From: a candidate division TA06 bacterium SM23_40
GTDB lineage: Bacteria; LJUI01; SM1-40
Assembly: GCA_001303705.1 (NCBI GenBank)
Contig: LJUI01000092.1
Location: 1 to 15,924, forward strand
DNA: 15,924 nucleotides
Direction of reading: 5' to 3'
Position 1 is the first letter of the stretch; every line of letters begins with the position of its first letter. The notes beneath the pieces were generated by a model, which was not told the DNA's origin, did not search any database, and saw only the letters and a list, made by a program, of their open reading frames with translations. Below are positions 348-15,388 of the stretch, piece after piece. Position numbers and translations under genes: made by a program.

Positions 348-442
<95 letters not shown>

Positions 443-620: not shown

Positions 621-707
621 TGGCGGAGGGCGAGGGATTCGAACCCCCAAGGGCCGAAGCCCGGCGGATTTCAAGTCCGCTGCCTTACCAGTTAGGACTA
701 GCCCTCC
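621..707 (-). tRNA. tRNA-Ser (anticodon UGA), CCA encoded
   Basis: An 87-nt class II tRNA reads from 707 down to 621. The acceptor GGAGGGC pairs with GCCCTCC, followed by discriminator G and an encoded CCA (623-621). The anticodon stem GCGGA/TCCGC encloses the loop CTTGAAA, so the anticodon is TGA (reads UCA and related serine codons). The variable arm CGGGC-TTCG-GCCC is long and ends in a stable tetraloop, typical of tRNA-Ser. The T arm is GGGGG-TTCGAAT-CCCTC with one G-U pair. It lies 67 bp after the stop of the beta-helix gene ending at 775 and has its own candidate promoter in that gap. Confidence 0.95.
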
Positions 708-8276: not shown

Positions 8277-9743
8277 CTATCTCAGCAACACCATCCGCTT
8301 CGTCTCGCTGAAGTCACCGGCCTCGAGACGATAGAAGTAGATCCCGCTAGCCACCTCGCGCCCGCGCGCGTCTAGCCCATCCCATAGGAGCTCATGTACG
8401 CCAGCATGCATCTTCCCGGATGTCAACTCGCGGACGACAGCTCCTCGTGCGTCATAGAGCGTCACCTTGACCGGCTGCGCGCTCGGCAGCGCGAATCGAA
8501 TTGCTGTCGTCGCCCGGAACGGATTCGGACGGTTCTGCATAAGTGCAAAGGCGCCGGGATGCGGTTCCTCACGAGGCTCCTCAGTGACCTGCACAAGTCC
8601 CTCGGCGTCCGTCTTGATCAGATAGACGTCGTCTCCACCCGCGCCAAACGATGCGGTGTATCCGGCAACGACATACCCCCCATCGCTCGTTACATCAATG
8701 GAGCGGGCATAGTCATCATCCGCGCCGCCGTACGTCCGCGTCCAGACCGTGTCTCCCGAAGCGTCCGTCTTGATCAGATAGACGTCGTACCCGCCCGCAC
8801 CAAACGAAGCGGTGTATCCGGCAATGACATACCCCCCATCGCCCGTCTCTTCAACCGAATAGCCATATTCATCATCTGAGCCGCCATAGGTCCGTGTCCA
8901 AGCGGTATCACCAGTTGCGTCGGTCTTGATCACATAGATGTCGTACCCGCCCGAGCCAAACGATTCGCTGAATCCTGCCATCACATACCCACCGTCGCTC
9001 GTCTGTCTGACCCAACGGTCCTCCTCATGATCTTGGCCGCCATAGGTGCGCGTCCAGACCGTGTCTCCTGAGGCGTCAACTTTGAGCAGGTAGACGTCCA
9101 ACCCGCCCGCACCGAACGAGGCAGCCCATGCTCCGACGATGTATCCACCGTCGCTCGTCTGGTCAACCGAACGGCCATACTCCTCATCCCCGCCGCCATA
9201 GGTGCGCGTCCAGACCGTCTCCCCCGACGCGCCAGTCTTCACCAGATACACATCCTTGGGTGCGCCACCGTATGGTTGGAACTCACCCACAATGATATAC
9301 CCACCATCGCTCGTCTGGTCAACCGAACGGCCATGATCATAATCCGGACCACCGTAGGTGCGCGTCCAGATCGTGTCTCCAGAACTGTCGGTCTTGATCA
9401 GATAGACATCGTCCCCGCCAGCACCAAACGAACCGGTGTATCCTCCGATGATATATCCATCATCATCCGTCTCCTCAGCCGAATAGCCCCAATCCCAATT
9501 TGAACCGCCATAGGTGCGCGTCCAGACCGTGTCTCCTGAAATGTCCGTCTTGATCAGATAGGCGTCGCTCTGGCCACCAGCGTACGGTTCGGCCCCTCCC
9601 GCGATGATATACCCTCCATCGCTCGTCTCCTCTACCGAATACCCCCACTCCCCAAATGCGCTGCCATAGGTGCGTTCGAAGGTGATCTGGGCGTCCGCGG
9701 TCAGCGGAACAAGCAAAGCCACCACAACCAGCAATGTTCTCAT
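8277..9743 (-). CDS. Secreted seven-repeat propeller-like protein with C-terminal sorting-like domain (D)
   Basis: 488 residues; the ATG is preceded by GGAGG 5 nt upstream and followed by the signal peptide [18 protein letters not shown], cut before QITFERTYG. Residues 19 to about 390 contain seven repeats of about 52 residues with the pattern [46 protein letters not shown]. The last repeat lacks its final WTRTYGG strand while the mature N-terminus supplies an unpaired FERTYG strand, as in closed beta-propellers; a seven-bladed propeller is therefore inferred. About 403-488 is the FlgD-Ig/type IX-like domain ([36 protein letters not shown]). It begins 12 bp after the beta-barrel gene E, which suggests translational coupling. 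Ligand and role are unknown. Signal peptide and architecture are nearly the same as in the gene at 13358-15388. Confidence 0.9.
   Translation of the reverse strand: [488 protein letters not shown]
8590..9689 (-). repeat. Seven 156-bp in-frame tandem repeats inside D
   Basis: Each unit encodes about 52 residues and the DNA itself is strongly conserved (for example 'GTCTTGATCAGATAGACGTC' and 'CGTCCAGACCGTGTCTCC' recur). The repeats could allow copy-number change by recombination or slippage. Confidence 0.85.
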
Positions 9744-9755
9744 GGCTCCCTCCCC

Positions 9756-11447
9756 CTATGCTCTGTACCTCCTCGTCGCACACATGTACCGCACCAGGAC
9801 CGTGTACTCCCTGTTGCCGTGCTCGCGGACCTTCCAGGTGCAGATAACCAAGGAGTAGTGTGCAACACTTCCCCAAGAATCAGCCGAAGCCTGTGCACAA
9901 CTGGCTCGCCTGCAGCCAGCCCTTCCCGCAGACCGGACGAGCAGGGTGCCTCCGCGCACCTTCGAGTCACTCCTGTCGATCCCGGCGTCGCCTCCCCCAC
10001 TGGCTCCGTCGTCGTCGCCCGTCTTGTCGGTATCGGCCCGACCAGCGCCCCGTACCGGTATGAACTGGGCCACCGCGCCGTCGAGGCGGAGTGGTCCGAC
10101 GTCAACTGCGGCCCCGACACAGGGGACGAAGATCGAGGTGTTCTCGAGCTCGAGGGTCATCTCTATTTCGTCCCTCCTCCCCAATCCGAGAAACGCGGGC
10201 TCCCATGAGTCGAGCGATAGCTCGCCATCCACCGACAGAAACCGCAGTCCCCCCCGAAGCACAGCAAAATCCGCGATATCCCGTTCACCGCCGAAATGGA
10301 GGCTCGTCAGACTGAGACTGCCCTCGCTCTCGATCCTCTGCCGCACACCGAGCAGGTCGATGAATCCCGTTGTGAAGGGCCATGCCTCGAGTGACCCATT
10401 CACGTGACCCTCGTATCTTGTGTGGGAAACGTCGGCGTAGCAGCGACTCCGCCTGAACGGGCGGAACCTGACTCCTGCTGCCCACTCGAGCGACTCCAGG
10501 TCGACCTGCCCCTGGCAGAAGCGTGTGCCATGCTCCGAGACACCGCCCTGTACTCTGCTATCACTGTCGCCGAAATGGAACGAGAACTCAGCGTCCTCGC
10601 CAAGTTCCCGGCTGATCGACAGGCGCCTGGCACGCGTCGTCGCGATCCCATCGACGAAGTAGGTGCGGCTCTGCTCTGCCGGCGCGTGGCGAAACATGTC
10701 CCGCCCTGCATGTTCTTCGAGCTCGATGGCGAGGTTTGGACTCGGAGCCAGCATGAGCTTGACACCGTAGTTCGCCCCATATCCACGCACGGGCAGGCCC
10801 ACTCGTTCCTTGCCGTACTCAACTCGCAGCGAGTGGGCTGAGCGTCGGCCGCTGGCGGAGATGGCGACAGAGACCGCACGATCCCCGGCAAGCGCCAGCG
10901 CCACACGATAACTCGGCCGATACCCGCTGCTCTCGTCTAGCCACAGGCCCGCCGCGACATCGATGAGTGACGTGGGGCGAAGACCATACGACACGCTCAG
11001 TGCCTGATATCTCGCCCGGTAGCGTTCCACATTGGCCGCGTCTCCCGGGCCCGCGAGCGCGAACTCGAGCACGTCATCGCGCCGGGATACGGCGAGCCCG
11101 ATTCCTCCCGGGAAGGAGCCGAGGGCGACGGGCACCCTGACTGTGAAGCCGCCACTCTCATGCCCGATCTGAAGAAAGGGATCGGATCGCCGTGCCACAT
11201 CCTCGACCCTGCCCGTGAGCACAACCTCGCCGCCCTGCACGCGGGGTACTGCGAGCAGATAGTTCAACTCCCGGGATGGCTCGGCACGGGTGACGAACGG
11301 CCAGCCGCCGATCCCGATCTCCTCGACCCCGCCGGGCACGAGGGTGTCCAGAATGAGCTGAGCCCTAGCGCTGTTCAGTCCGGGCGGACCTGCCAGTACG
11401 GCGACAGCGAGAAAGAGAAGCCACGCCCTCCTGGCACAAGCGATCAT
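9756..11447 (-). CDS. Putative outer-membrane beta-barrel protein (E)
   Basis: The start chosen is the ATG at 11447, which opens a signal peptide (MIACARRAWLLFLAVAVLAG, then PPGLNSARA before QLILDTLVPGG); this gives 563 residues. The frame is open further upstream through a repeat array to ATG 11849, which has GGAGGAG 8 nt before it, and to a GTG at 11936, so a longer N-terminus is possible. The mature part has many alternating hydrophobic strands and turns (FTVRVPVALGSFPGGIGLAV, RYQALSVSYGLRP, LIDVAAGLWLDES, GVKLMLAPSPNLAIELEEHA, LRLDGAVAQFIPVRG), typical of an outer-membrane barrel; no specific family is recognised. The last ~95 residues are different: Asp/Gly-rich (DTDKTGDDDGASGGGDAG), then Arg/Ser-rich. 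The stop lies only 12 bp from the next start, which supports the stop as real. Between a TPR lipoprotein and two sorting-tail proteins, it may serve their export or anchoring; this is inference. Confidence 0.7.
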   Translation of the reverse strand: MIACARRAWLLFLAVAVLAGPPGLNSARAQLILDTLVPGGVEEIGIGGWPFVTRAEPSRELNYLLAVPRVQGGEVVLTGRVEDVARRSDPFLQIGHESGGFTVRVPVALGSFPGGIGLAVSRRDDVLEFALAGPGDAANVERYRARYQALSVSYGLRPTSLIDVAAGLWLDESSGYRPSYRVALALAGDRAVSVAISASGRRSAHSLRVEYGKERVGLPVRGYGANYGVKLMLAPSPNLAIELEEHAGRDMFRHAPAEQSRTYFVDGIATTRARRLSISRELGEDAEFSFHFGDSDSRVQGGVSEHGTRFCQGQVDLESLEWAAGVRFRPFRRSRCYADVSHTRYEGHVNGSLEAWPFTTGFIDLLGVRQRIESEGSLSLTSLHFGGERDIADFAVLRGGLRFLSVDGELSLDSWEPAFLGLGRRDEIEMTLELENTSIFVPCVGAAVDVGPLRLDGAVAQFIPVRGAGRADTDKTGDDDGASGGGDAGIDRSDSKVRGGTLLVRSAGRAGCRRASCAQASADSWGSVAHYSLVICTWKVREHGNREYTVLVRYMCATRRYRA

Positions 11448-11800
11448 CGGTCCTGCGCTCCGGGTAGGTCTCTGCCCACTCCCCCGAGCAGACATCCTTC
11501 CTGCGCTCCAGGTGGATCCCCGCCCACTGCCCGGCGTCGGTCTCCGCCCGCTGCCCGGACCGAACATCCCTCCTGCGCTCCGGACGGATCTCTGCCCGCT
11601 ACTCTGAGGAGATATCGGTCTTGCGCTCCACCTGGATTTCCATCCGCTGCCCAAAGAGCATATCCGCCCTGCGCTCCGGGCGGACCTCTGCCTGCAGCCC
11701 GGGGTTAATCTCTGCCCTCTGCCGGTGGTGAATCTCTGCCCTCTACGGGCGGTGAACCTCCGTCCTCTACCGAGAGCGGATCCCCGTCCTGTGTGCGGAA
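11448..11800. repeat. Array of about 15 exact-phase 24-bp tandem repeats upstream of E
   Basis: A C-rich motif (plus strand TCCTGCGCTC or CCCGCTGCCC, or variants) recurs every 24 bp at 11451, 11475, 11499 and so on to 11787, with no insertion or deletion. Two sub-types often alternate, giving 48-bp super-units. Read on the minus strand in the frame of E it encodes Gly/Ser/Arg-rich octads (such as GRGQRFTT, GSGQRPTR). The right-hand unit of the transcript supplies the GGAG and ATG of E itself, and other units carry the same GGAGCGCAGGAxxGATG pattern. It fills most of the 469-bp stretch between E and F. Coding or leader status is unresolved. Confidence 0.85.
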
Positions 11801-11916
11801 CAATTCCCAGCGGAAGCATGTTCGCAACAGCCACCCGTCTCGATGGCATCGTTCCCGCTCCTCCGGTCCTCTGCGCAGCACCGAGTGAAAATGCGTATCG
11901 CCTTCGCAGATCCTTC

Positions 11917-13080
11917 TCACAGACCGAATATCTCACGGAGCCTCTCGTTCGTCATGCCCGGCAGAATCCCGTTGAAGGTGGGATCGGAGAATGTGATCGG
12001 CTCGTCGAGTATCGGCATTCCCTCCTCGAAGTGATAGTCGGGCAACTTCTCTTTCCAATCCTGGATCGGATTGAGGAACAGCTGGCCGAGATAGACGCTG
12101 ACTGTGGGCTCGCCCGGCTGTTCCCACGGGATCTCGACGTCGATTGGGCTGTTCAGGGTCGCCTCGAGATCGTCGAGTAGTTCCCGGGCCAGCTCCAAGT
12201 TCGGATCGTTGGGATCGCTTACTGTCGTCAAATCATCAGATTGGTCGTCCGTCTCGGCAAGGATCGCATCGAGCCCATCCTCTGCGTGGACGACCGCTGA
12301 CAGGAGATCATCCCGTGCAGCAGTCAGGTAGCTCCAGCCCTCCGGGTAGAGCGTCAGGAAGCTCGACCCGGTGCCGAGCAGCGTCTCCCACGATGGATTC
12401 TCGTAGTCATCTACATCGAAGTCATAGGAGATGAGAAAGTAGATCGCCGCTCTCGCTGCCTCGAGCCCGGCATGGGCGAGGTAGATGTCGCCGAGATCGA
12501 CCTCTATGTTCTCCGGTTCGCCTGTCATCCCCGGCGTGAGGATGAACTGGAACGACGGATTGGCCTCGAGGACCTGGAACCGCGCCATGACATAGGCGAA
12601 TACCGGCAGGACGTTATCCCTCAGCAACTCCTGCATCTCGCTCATGGGCGGAGGCTGTTGTATCGCGCCACTCGTCATTCGTAGCACTCCACCGAAGAAG
12701 ACGAGTGTCGAGGGAGACAGGGTGGCATCACCAAGCAGGCCGGGTGACGGTGGGGGGACGGGCTCGAACTCGAAGAATTCGATCCAGGCCTGGATCGCTT
12801 CCGCTAACTCGGGGTCCTCGTACATCACCAACGCCTCGGTCACTCCGGCACCGAACTGAGCATCGAGATTCTGTGGATCGAGGCTTATAGCCTGTTTGTA
12901 CAGCGCATTCGCCCCTGCATAGTCGTCCTGCTCCACAAGTCCATTCGCCTGGGCGACCAGCTCCTCCGCGGTTAGGCCGTCGCCATCCCCGCCGGTAGGC
13001 TCCTCACTTGCACACCCGGCAAGGCACAGCGCCGCCACCAGTGCCAGCAAGACTGCTACACTACTCCAGTCTCTCCTCAT
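11917..13080 (-). CDS. TPR-containing lipoprotein (F)
   Basis: The frame is open from a GTG at 13155, but the ATG at 13080 is chosen because AGGAGG lies 7 nt before it and a lipoprotein signal peptide starts there: MRRDWSSVAVLLALVAALCLAGC with lipobox LAGC and Cys at residue 23 (387 residues in all). Ala follows the Cys, not Asp, so outer-membrane sorting is expected if E. coli-like rules hold. An acidic Gly linker is followed at about residues 35-85 by a TPR-like helix pair (AEELVAQANGLVEQDDYAGA, then ALYKQAISLDPQNLDAQFGA). The rest is mostly helical, acidic and of no recognised family, ending DPTFNGILPGMTNERLREIF. As TPRs bind proteins, a scaffold or assembly role at the outer membrane with the adjacent barrel E is plausible. 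It is the first gene of the probable F-E-D-C operon. Confidence 0.85.
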   Translation of the reverse strand: MRRDWSSVAVLLALVAALCLAGCASEEPTGGDGDGLTAEELVAQANGLVEQDDYAGANALYKQAISLDPQNLDAQFGAGVTEALVMYEDPELAEAIQAWIEFFEFEPVPPPSPGLLGDATLSPSTLVFFGGVLRMTSGAIQQPPPMSEMQELLRDNVLPVFAYVMARFQVLEANPSFQFILTPGMTGEPENIEVDLGDIYLAHAGLEAARAAIYFLISYDFDVDDYENPSWETLLGTGSSFLTLYPEGWSYLTAARDDLLSAVVHAEDGLDAILAETDDQSDDLTTVSDPNDPNLELARELLDDLEATLNSPIDVEIPWEQPGEPTVSVYLGQLFLNPIQDWKEKLPDYHFEEGMPILDEPITFSDPTFNGILPGMTNERLREIFGL

Positions 13081-13232
13081 GGTTCGTCCTCCTCCTGCCA
13101 GAAGGTTCTCACCGGCCCAGGGATCCCGCCGTGCACGCGTAACCGGCGCCTGCACGCGGCCCTGCGAGGCTCGCCTAGTGCACCGCCCTCACGTCCACGC
13201 AGCTCATCCCTCGCCCCACACACGCTATAGAG

Positions 13233-13357: not shown

Positions 13358-15388
13358 CTATCGCAACAACACCATCCTCCTCGTCTCTCTGAACTCGCCG
13401 GCCTCGAGGTGGCAGAAGTACACGCCGCTCGCCACCGCATGCCCCCGACCGTCGCGTCCATCCCACACTACCTGGTGCACACCGGCCGCAACTGTCTCGT
13501 CGACAAGCTCGCGCACCAGCGCACCACGGATGTCATAGATCGCCAGCGCGACCCGGCACTTCGCCTTCAGGGAATAATGGACAGTTGTCTGGGCTCCAAA
13601 CGGATTGGGACGGTTCTGCGCGAGGTACTGCGCGAGCGGACGCGATTCGTCTTCGTCATCGCCCACCCCGACCACATCCGTGACCGTTATGTCCGTCTGC
13701 TCACTATCTGCCAGGGCCGGGCTCCCGTAGTCCGTGCCGATGAACGTCACGGTATACAGCCCGGCTTGCTGGTAGGTGGGCGTCCACTCGAAAACGCCGC
13801 TCACCGAATCGAGCGTCGCCCCCGTCGGCAGATCAGGTGAGGCAAACCAAACACTGTCGAGGTCTGGATCGCTGGCCTCCAGAGTGAAGGTCAGATACTG
13901 ATTCTCTGCCACGGTTGTATCGGGTTGATCGAGCAGATCAGGCGGGCGATTCACATTACCTACAGTGATGTCGGTCTGCTCGGTGTCCGCAAGGGCCGGC
14001 TCGCCGACGTCTGTCGCGATGAACGTCACCGTATGGAGACCGGCCTGCTGGTAGGTGGGCGTCCATTCGAAGATACCGCTCACAGAGTCGAGCATCGCCC
14101 CTGTGGGCAGATCGGGAGAGGCAAACCAGATACTGTCACCATCTGGATCGGTCGCCTCCAGTGTGAACGTCAGGTAGAGGTTTTCGGCTATTGTCGTGTC
14201 GGGCTGATCCACAAGATCCGGTGCATGATTCACACCCACGAGCCCATCCGCGTCGGTCTTGATCAGATATACATCGTACGCGCCTGCGCCGGACGATGTG
14301 GTGAATCCAGTGATGATATATCCCCCGTCGGCCGTCTGCTTTACTGAACGTCCTCTCTCATAGTCTGGGCCGCCGTACGTGCGCGTCCACAGCGTATCAC
14401 CCGATCCGTTAGTCTTGATCAGATACACGTCGTCGTAGCCGGCGCCGAAGGAATCGGTGTATCCAGCGATGATGTATCCGCCACCGGCCGTCCAGTCAAC
14501 TGAACGACCAAAATCATCGGACGAGCCGCCGAACGTTCTCGTCCTGATCGTATCTCCCGCTCCGTCAGTCTTGATCAGATATACATCCGAGTTGCCTGCA
14601 CCGAACGAATAGGTGTATCCGGCGATGATGTATCCACCGTCGGCCGTCTGCTGTACCGAATGGCCAAAGTCCCACTCTGAGCCGCCGAACGTCCTCGTCC
14701 ACGCCGTATCGCCGGCCGCGTCAGTCTTGATAAGGTAGACATCTGCAAGGCCTGCCCCAAACGACCAGGTGTGTCCAGCGATGATGTATCCACCGTCGGC
14801 CGTCTGCTCAACCGAACGCCCAAAGTCATCTGATGGACCGCCGAAGGTCCGCGTCCAGGCCGTATCACCAACTGAGTCAGTCTTGATCAGATATACATCG
14901 ATCCCGCCGACGCCGTATGAAGCTGTGTATCCGGCGATGATGTATCCGCCGTCGGCCGTCTGCTGCACGGAATAACCATAATCATCGGACGGACCGCCGT
15001 AGGTGCGTGTCCCGACCGTATCGCCCGCTCCGTCAGTCTTAATCAGATACACATCCGGTCCGCCTGCACCAAAGGAACCGGTGTATCCAGTGACGACGTA
15101 TCCACCGTCGCTCGTCTGCGCCACTGAATACCCATCGTCGTAGCCCGGCCCGCCGAACATGCGCGTCCACAGCGTGTCGCCCACCTCGTCCGTCCTGATC
15201 AGATAGACATCTGTAAGGCTTGCGCCGAACGAGTAGGTGTATCCGACGATGATGTATCCGCCATCGTTCGTCTGCGTTACCGAATACCCATCATCATCGA
15301 AAAAACCGCCGTAGGTGCGCTCGAACGATATCTGGGCACCAGCGGTCAGCGGTATCAGCAACGCCAGCAGAACCAGCAACGCTCTCAT
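13358..15388 (-). CDS. Secreted seven-repeat propeller-like protein with two Ig-like modules and C-terminal sorting-like domain (G)
   Basis: 676 residues. GGAG lies 6 nt before the ATG and the signal peptide [18 protein letters not shown] precedes [10 protein letters not shown], nearly identical to that of the gene at 8277-9743. Residues 19 to about 387 hold seven 52-residue repeats ([45 protein letters not shown]), again with a lone N-terminal strand that could close a seven-bladed propeller. In repeats 2 and 5 the conserved Trp is Gly ([10 protein letters not shown]) and Arg ([10 protein letters not shown]). About 388-573 are two Ig/cadherin-like modules ([33 protein letters not shown]). 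About 593-676 is the FlgD-Ig/type IX-like domain ([28 protein letters not shown], ending ETRRMVLLR). It is probably a surface or secreted binding protein. It is separated by 206 bp from the preceding gene and 277 bp from the next, so it may be its own transcript. Confidence 0.9.
   Translation of the reverse strand: [676 protein letters not shown]
13672..14236 (-). repeat. Two in-frame Ig/cadherin-like modules (about 282 bp each) inside G
   Basis: The boundary encoding 'EQTDITV' recurs near 13680 and 13960. The second protein module plus its linker (TDVVGV, then an acidic stretch, then [10 protein letters not shown]) closely matches the third module and linker of the protein encoded at 775-2979. 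Confidence 0.75.
14240..15334 (-). repeat. Seven 156-bp in-frame tandem repeats inside G
   Basis: The plus strand shows 'GTCTTGATCAGATATACATC' and 'GATGATGTATCCGCCGTCGG' or close variants at 156-bp intervals. Units match those at 8590-9689 in length and pattern, showing a common origin. Confidence 0.85.

Follow-up and report, generated by a model that had tools for sequence, protein, structure and literature searches.

The degenerate tandem array that lies between gene E and its upstream lipoprotein gene in candidate division TA06 bacterium SM23_40 is very probably a non-coding minisatellite, which grew by tandem duplication between two genes that are normally found back to back. The window, i.e., the whole 15,924-nucleotide stretch of contig LJUI01000092.1 analyzed here, carries the array at positions 11444-11803 of the minus strand, where 15 units of 24 bp follow one another without indels. 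The array has a regular anatomy, lacks a coding signal in the frame of E, is absent from the loci of E homologs, and belongs to a genome in which non-coding arrays are abundant. Duplication or slippage would account for its origin, and the array itself probably serves no selected function.

Gene E and its upstream neighbor

Gene E (9756-11447, minus strand) encodes 563 amino acids counted from 11447, beginning with a signal peptide (MIACARRAWLLFLAVAVLAG...SARAQ), and an in-frame coding signal is present from 11447 downward. The product is a putative outer-membrane beta-barrel protein, as judged from its sequence and from a structure model of low confidence (mean pLDDT 38) with long beta-strands at residues 276-461; no Pfam match was obtained for the longer open reading frame (ORF) containing E. 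The part of E past about 10000 (9756-10000 in the window) is unlike the ends of the homologs (YGGGFxxxxxxxF) and has a weaker codon signal, for which a frameshift, an assembly error or a diverged end are possible explanations. The conserved upstream neighbor of E is a TPR lipoprotein gene (11917-13155, minus strand), the TPR matches of which are below cut-off, and 469 nt separate the two genes in the window.

Anatomy of the array and the start region of E

The self-identity of the array is 0.54 at a shift of 24 bp, 0.58 at 48, 0.56 at 72, and 0.60 at 120, compared with a best value of only 0.41 in shuffled arrays (n = 1000, shifts 10-99), and its periodicity is the strongest of the whole window at the scan length used and shifts below 100. 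Two types of units can be distinguished, type A (5 copies) with the consensus CCRCCYGGAGCGCAGGAxxGATRT and type B (10 copies) with the consensus YCRCYCCGGGCAGYGGGCRGAGAT, and their order, 5' to 3' on the minus strand, is BBBBBABABABBABA. The spacings of 48, 72, and 120 bp suggest that at least two units were duplicated together.

In a position-weight scan with a matrix of all units, 15 of the 15 in-phase units were found at p < 0.0001, and beyond 11444-11803 the in-phase units had p values of at least 0.008, none matching the array units. The original prediction of about 15 units in exact 24-bp phase is thus borne out, but its edges (11451-11787) fall short of the actual ones, which are 11803 and the start codon of E. 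There is no clear continuation within E: the first in-phase unit inside the gene is marginal (p 0.02-0.03 in the same scan), and an extension of the array into the signal peptide was dropped on this ground. The strict phase across 15 diverged units outlasts that of most other arrays of this genome. The remaining spacer (11804-11916, minus strand) is non-repetitive and without coding signal, and it contains the predicted GGAGGAG-8 nt-ATG at 11849.

The last A-type unit (11444-11467, minus strand) supplies both the GGAG located 10 nt before the ATG of E and the ATG itself (11447-11445), as had been predicted; it stops one base past this ATG and shares 17-19 of 24 bases with the other A units. 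The two further units with an in-frame ATG that had been pointed out were also seen, at 11492-11515 (ATG at 11495) and at 11564-11587 (ATG at 11567), both on the minus strand, and in the remaining two A units (11612-11635 and 11660-11683, minus strand) ATA replaces ATG. One alternative explanation is that translation begins at two or three of the A units (ATGs at 11567, 11495, and 11447), yielding signal peptides whose n-regions differ in length, and that the number of units tunes the translation of E while the frame is kept. The resemblance of the A units to the start region of E, the identical 10-nt distance between GGAG and ATG in the two upstream units, the use of SD motifs by this genome (GGAG ahead of the first ATG in 43% of the genes sampled vs. 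13% at control positions), and the fact that a start at 11495 would add no more than 16 residues to E are consistent with such duplicated initiation, but two of the five A units have ATA in place of ATG and the encoded peptide bears no sign of selection, and this explanation is considered quite unlikely. Less probable still is the more specific proposal that a duplicated ribosome-binding site (RBS) and start in a triplet-multiple unit would let the unit number tune the amount or targeting of E through the length of the n-region while the frame stays intact. The original prediction had suggested a repeated leader in which initiation sites are duplicated; its anatomy holds, given the resemblance of the A units to the RBS and start of E, but switching on and off by frameshift would not be expected, since a 24-bp unit is frame-neutral.

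Is the array coding?

The frame of E is open on the minus strand from the GTG at 11936 and, as noted in the original prediction, through all units, and a low-complexity Gly/Ser/Arg extension at the N-terminus of E, starting from about 11849 or 11936, could be read from it, the GGAGGAG ahead of the ATG at 11849 being a good RBS. The open frame itself follows from the unit, because a 24-bp unit free of stops in the frame of E keeps this frame open through the whole array. When the array columns were sampled independently in a selection-free model, 36% of the draws preserved an open frame for E, and the corresponding values for two offsets on the plus strand were 47% and 59%; in the real array, just one stop interrupts each of three of the five remaining frames. 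A lesson of caution for gene calling is that an uninterrupted frame across a triplet-multiple repeat is weak evidence for coding; in the present case, E would likely gain 134-163 false residues under automatic annotation.

By codon log-odds, for which long ORFs of this genome served as the training set, the array scored -0.16 in the frame of E, compared with +0.02 and -0.07 for the remaining two minus-strand frames, so that the frame of E has the lowest score of the three. The body of E (11447 to 10060), by the same measure, ranged from +0.09 to +0.19 in its own frame and from -0.19 to -0.36 when read out of frame. The mean information of the array columns by codon position in the frame of E was 0.92, 1.00, and 1.01, and hence the third position is no looser than the first or second. 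The dN/dS between units in the frame of E, the comparison of units that had been suggested along with the original prediction, was 1.34 among A units, 0.74 among B units, and 0.92 over all units; these values, near 1 overall and above it for A units, show no coding pattern, and the other frames of both strands gave a similar spread.

Such an extension is missing from the homologs described below, and with it about 134 residues would precede the signal peptide of E. The N-terminal extension is therefore regarded as refuted as far as sequence allows, and as highly improbable overall; an extension unique to this lineage would still be conceivable, since the homologs are only 16-27% identical overall to E. 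The separate leader peptide from 11849 that had been offered as another option fares no better, as its translation would continue into E without a change of frame, and codon usage does not support it. Assignment of the array to the coding repeats was likewise rejected, because neither codon usage nor the substitution pattern in the frame of E is that of a coding repeat and the array is absent from the homologs.

Homologs of E and their loci

Distant relatives of E were detected in 2 of 40 sampled genomes. A scan of the GTDB collection with E alone found no relative, and a scan of the same collection with alignment A1 returned five loci, including two Zixibacteria records and Electryonea clarkiae; the proteins of loci L069 and L066 are identical to those of the loci in genomes G006 and G007, respectively. 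A homolog of the TPR lipoprotein gene lies directly before the barrel gene in L022/L069, L065, L067, L068, and L071, where the upstream ORF of L071 is a fragment recognized solely from its conserved end. The TPR protein of the window is 26-30% identical to the upstream-gene homologs in an alignment of four loci. The TPR lipoprotein gene and the putative barrel gene, the latter with a conserved WPFT...LLG motif, form a conserved pair in the window and in L065, L067, L068, L069, and L071, and this pair is found across Zixibacteria, Electryonea, and further lineages.

The distance between lipoprotein and barrel genes is a gap of 16 nt in L022/L069 and of 33 nt in L071, and the genes overlap by 44 nt in L065, by 10 nt in L068, and by 74 nt in L067 if the first ATG is used. 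No array was found at any of these loci with the upstream gene (L022/L069, L065, L067, L068, and L071). The homologous proteins start at, or a few tens of residues from, a signal-peptide-like stretch, and the barrel protein of G007/L066, which is kept without a TPR lipoprotein gene upstream, starts at a hydrophobic stretch as well. The original prediction had named homologs of E that begin at the signal peptide with no array upstream as evidence against a coding array, and this is what the homologs show, their N-termini lying at the signal peptide or close to it; the option of a genuine N-terminal extension is thereby contradicted, in line with the missing coding signal.

Arrays elsewhere in the genome and in other genomes

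The genome (89.76% complete, 189 contigs) is the only one of its phylum in the genome collection analyzed, and its genes were called with a home-made caller. A simple periodicity scan of an 825-kb sample, consisting of stretches of its contigs and including the window, gave 30 array calls, of which 23 fall for the most part in sequence without called genes; because of its open frame, the gene caller placed the window array among the genic ones. The 23 non-coding arrays, equivalent to about 28 per Mb of sampled sequence, have periods of 14-57 bp with 16 different values, 10 of the 23 being multiples of three and 13 not. Tandem Repeats Finder reported 0-3% indels for nearly all arrays, mostly 0-2%, and the low-indel arrays include those with periods of 14, 16, 17, 22, 23, 26, 28, 32, and 53 bp. 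Clean arrays of non-triplet period are thus common in this genome, and the lack of indels, which the original prediction took to argue for a frame constraint, is uninformative about the frame.

Among these arrays, one with a 24/12-bp period fills the spacer between putative hypD and hypE ORFs (as read from sequence), and in another (L029, 12041-12317) the first units overrun the stop of the preceding gene, mirroring the last unit of the window array over the start of E. Further degenerate arrays with unrelated units are located at L033:14426-14673, L089:11048-11321, and L039:1404-1966. A DNA search of the genome revealed no convincing sister copy of the window array, the best other match being 34 bp long (E-value 4.6e-4) and outside any array, and a dispersed repeat family was ruled out accordingly.

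Samples of roughly 8 to 20 kb per genome from 17 other genomes (287 kb in total) contained no non-coding array, and neither did 90 kb of G006. Two were detected in 100 kb of G296, and six, of short period, in 112 kb of the distantly related G016 (stretches L052 and L131). The habit of forming arrays is uneven among lineages and not unique to this one, as observed with small control samples.

Proposed origin of the array

The ancestral state would have been a tight two-gene operon, with the TPR lipoprotein gene followed by E. Repeated tandem duplication in this lineage may then have copied pieces of 24, 48, and 72 bp beside and including the RBS and start codon of E, and the copies would afterwards have diverged through point mutation, the array being neutral or near-neutral. 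Since many arrays of unrelated sequence and period exist in the genome, a general tendency toward spacer duplication suffices as an explanation. E is most likely translated from the ATG at 11447 in the last unit, and the GGAG 10 nt ahead of it is probably its RBS; at the present distance, E would no longer be placed to have its translation coupled to that of the lipoprotein gene and would need an RBS of its own. Extra starts with a longer n-region might be provided by the upstream A units with ATGs at 11495 and 11567, both of which are in frame. A 24-bp unit can be gained or lost without any shift of frame, so that phase variation of the classic frameshift type would not be expected.

Regulation and RNA structure

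A regulatory role has also been considered, in which tandem protein-binding sites or a structured leader RNA control E, now uncoupled from the lipoprotein gene. The array sits directly upstream of E, its two unit types alternate, and upstream tandem repeats affect expression in some bacteria (PMC3899988; PMC5179023). The units and periods of the other arrays are unrelated, however, which argues against a common factor site, and no sigma-70-like promoter was matched across the array in a scan covering that promoter type alone. The predicted RNA fold is mildly more stable than those of shuffled sequences (z -1.7, with 5 of 100 shuffles equally good), so that a leader RNA structure over the array is possible, but the z value is only -1.7 and Rfam gave no match in the array. 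A structured RNA was set aside for these two reasons, and regulation by the array as a whole is judged unlikely, the least so among the alternatives to a non-coding minisatellite. The only Rfam matches were two tRNAs, and two tRNA-Ser genes with GCT and TGA anticodons lie next to each other in the window (350-442 and 621-707, minus strand).

Relation to known repeat systems

The array belongs with the bacterial intergenic minisatellites, as its units are arranged head to tail, fall in the range of roughly 10-100 bp, and lie outside coding sequence. Like minisatellites and VNTR loci (PMC2884548; PMC3914561), it has units of tens of bases that differ by point mutations and are unrelated in sequence between loci. 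The units described here are far more diverged (about 54-60% self-identity), and the density of such arrays (28 per Mb) exceeds that of most bacteria sampled.

MIRUs are located between the genes of operons and may touch the flanking start and stop codons. They are likewise tandem repeats found at many loci, with a unit length of 46-101 bp (PMC3914561), whereas the unit here is 24 bp and has no sister copies at other loci in the DNA search. A MIRU-like dispersed family was rejected on both unit length and shared sequence. In Beggiatoaceae, direct repeats of TAACTGA before start codons have been proposed to play a role in translation (PMC4679880); the position just upstream of start codons is similar, but a single heptamer is used genome-wide in that case, and the arrays here differ from one another in unit and period. 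Phase-variable contingency repeats resemble the array in that a tandem repeat adjoins a surface-protein gene, and the cases listed are short repeats that alter the frame, promoter spacing or binding sites (PMC3899988). The present array, in contrast, is long, degenerate, and frame-neutral, and a contingency locus acting by frame change was excluded because 24 is a multiple of three. No report on arrays of this lineage was found in the open-access literature, which makes for a weak negative. The genome can be used as a case for spacer growth by short tandem duplication in bacteria.

Repeats of another kind occur within proteins of the window: two secreted proteins (8277-9743 and 13358-15388) consist of 52-residue (156-bp) repeats and carry an FlgD-like C-terminal domain. 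Both are flanked by beta-helix proteins, some of which share the same kind of tail.
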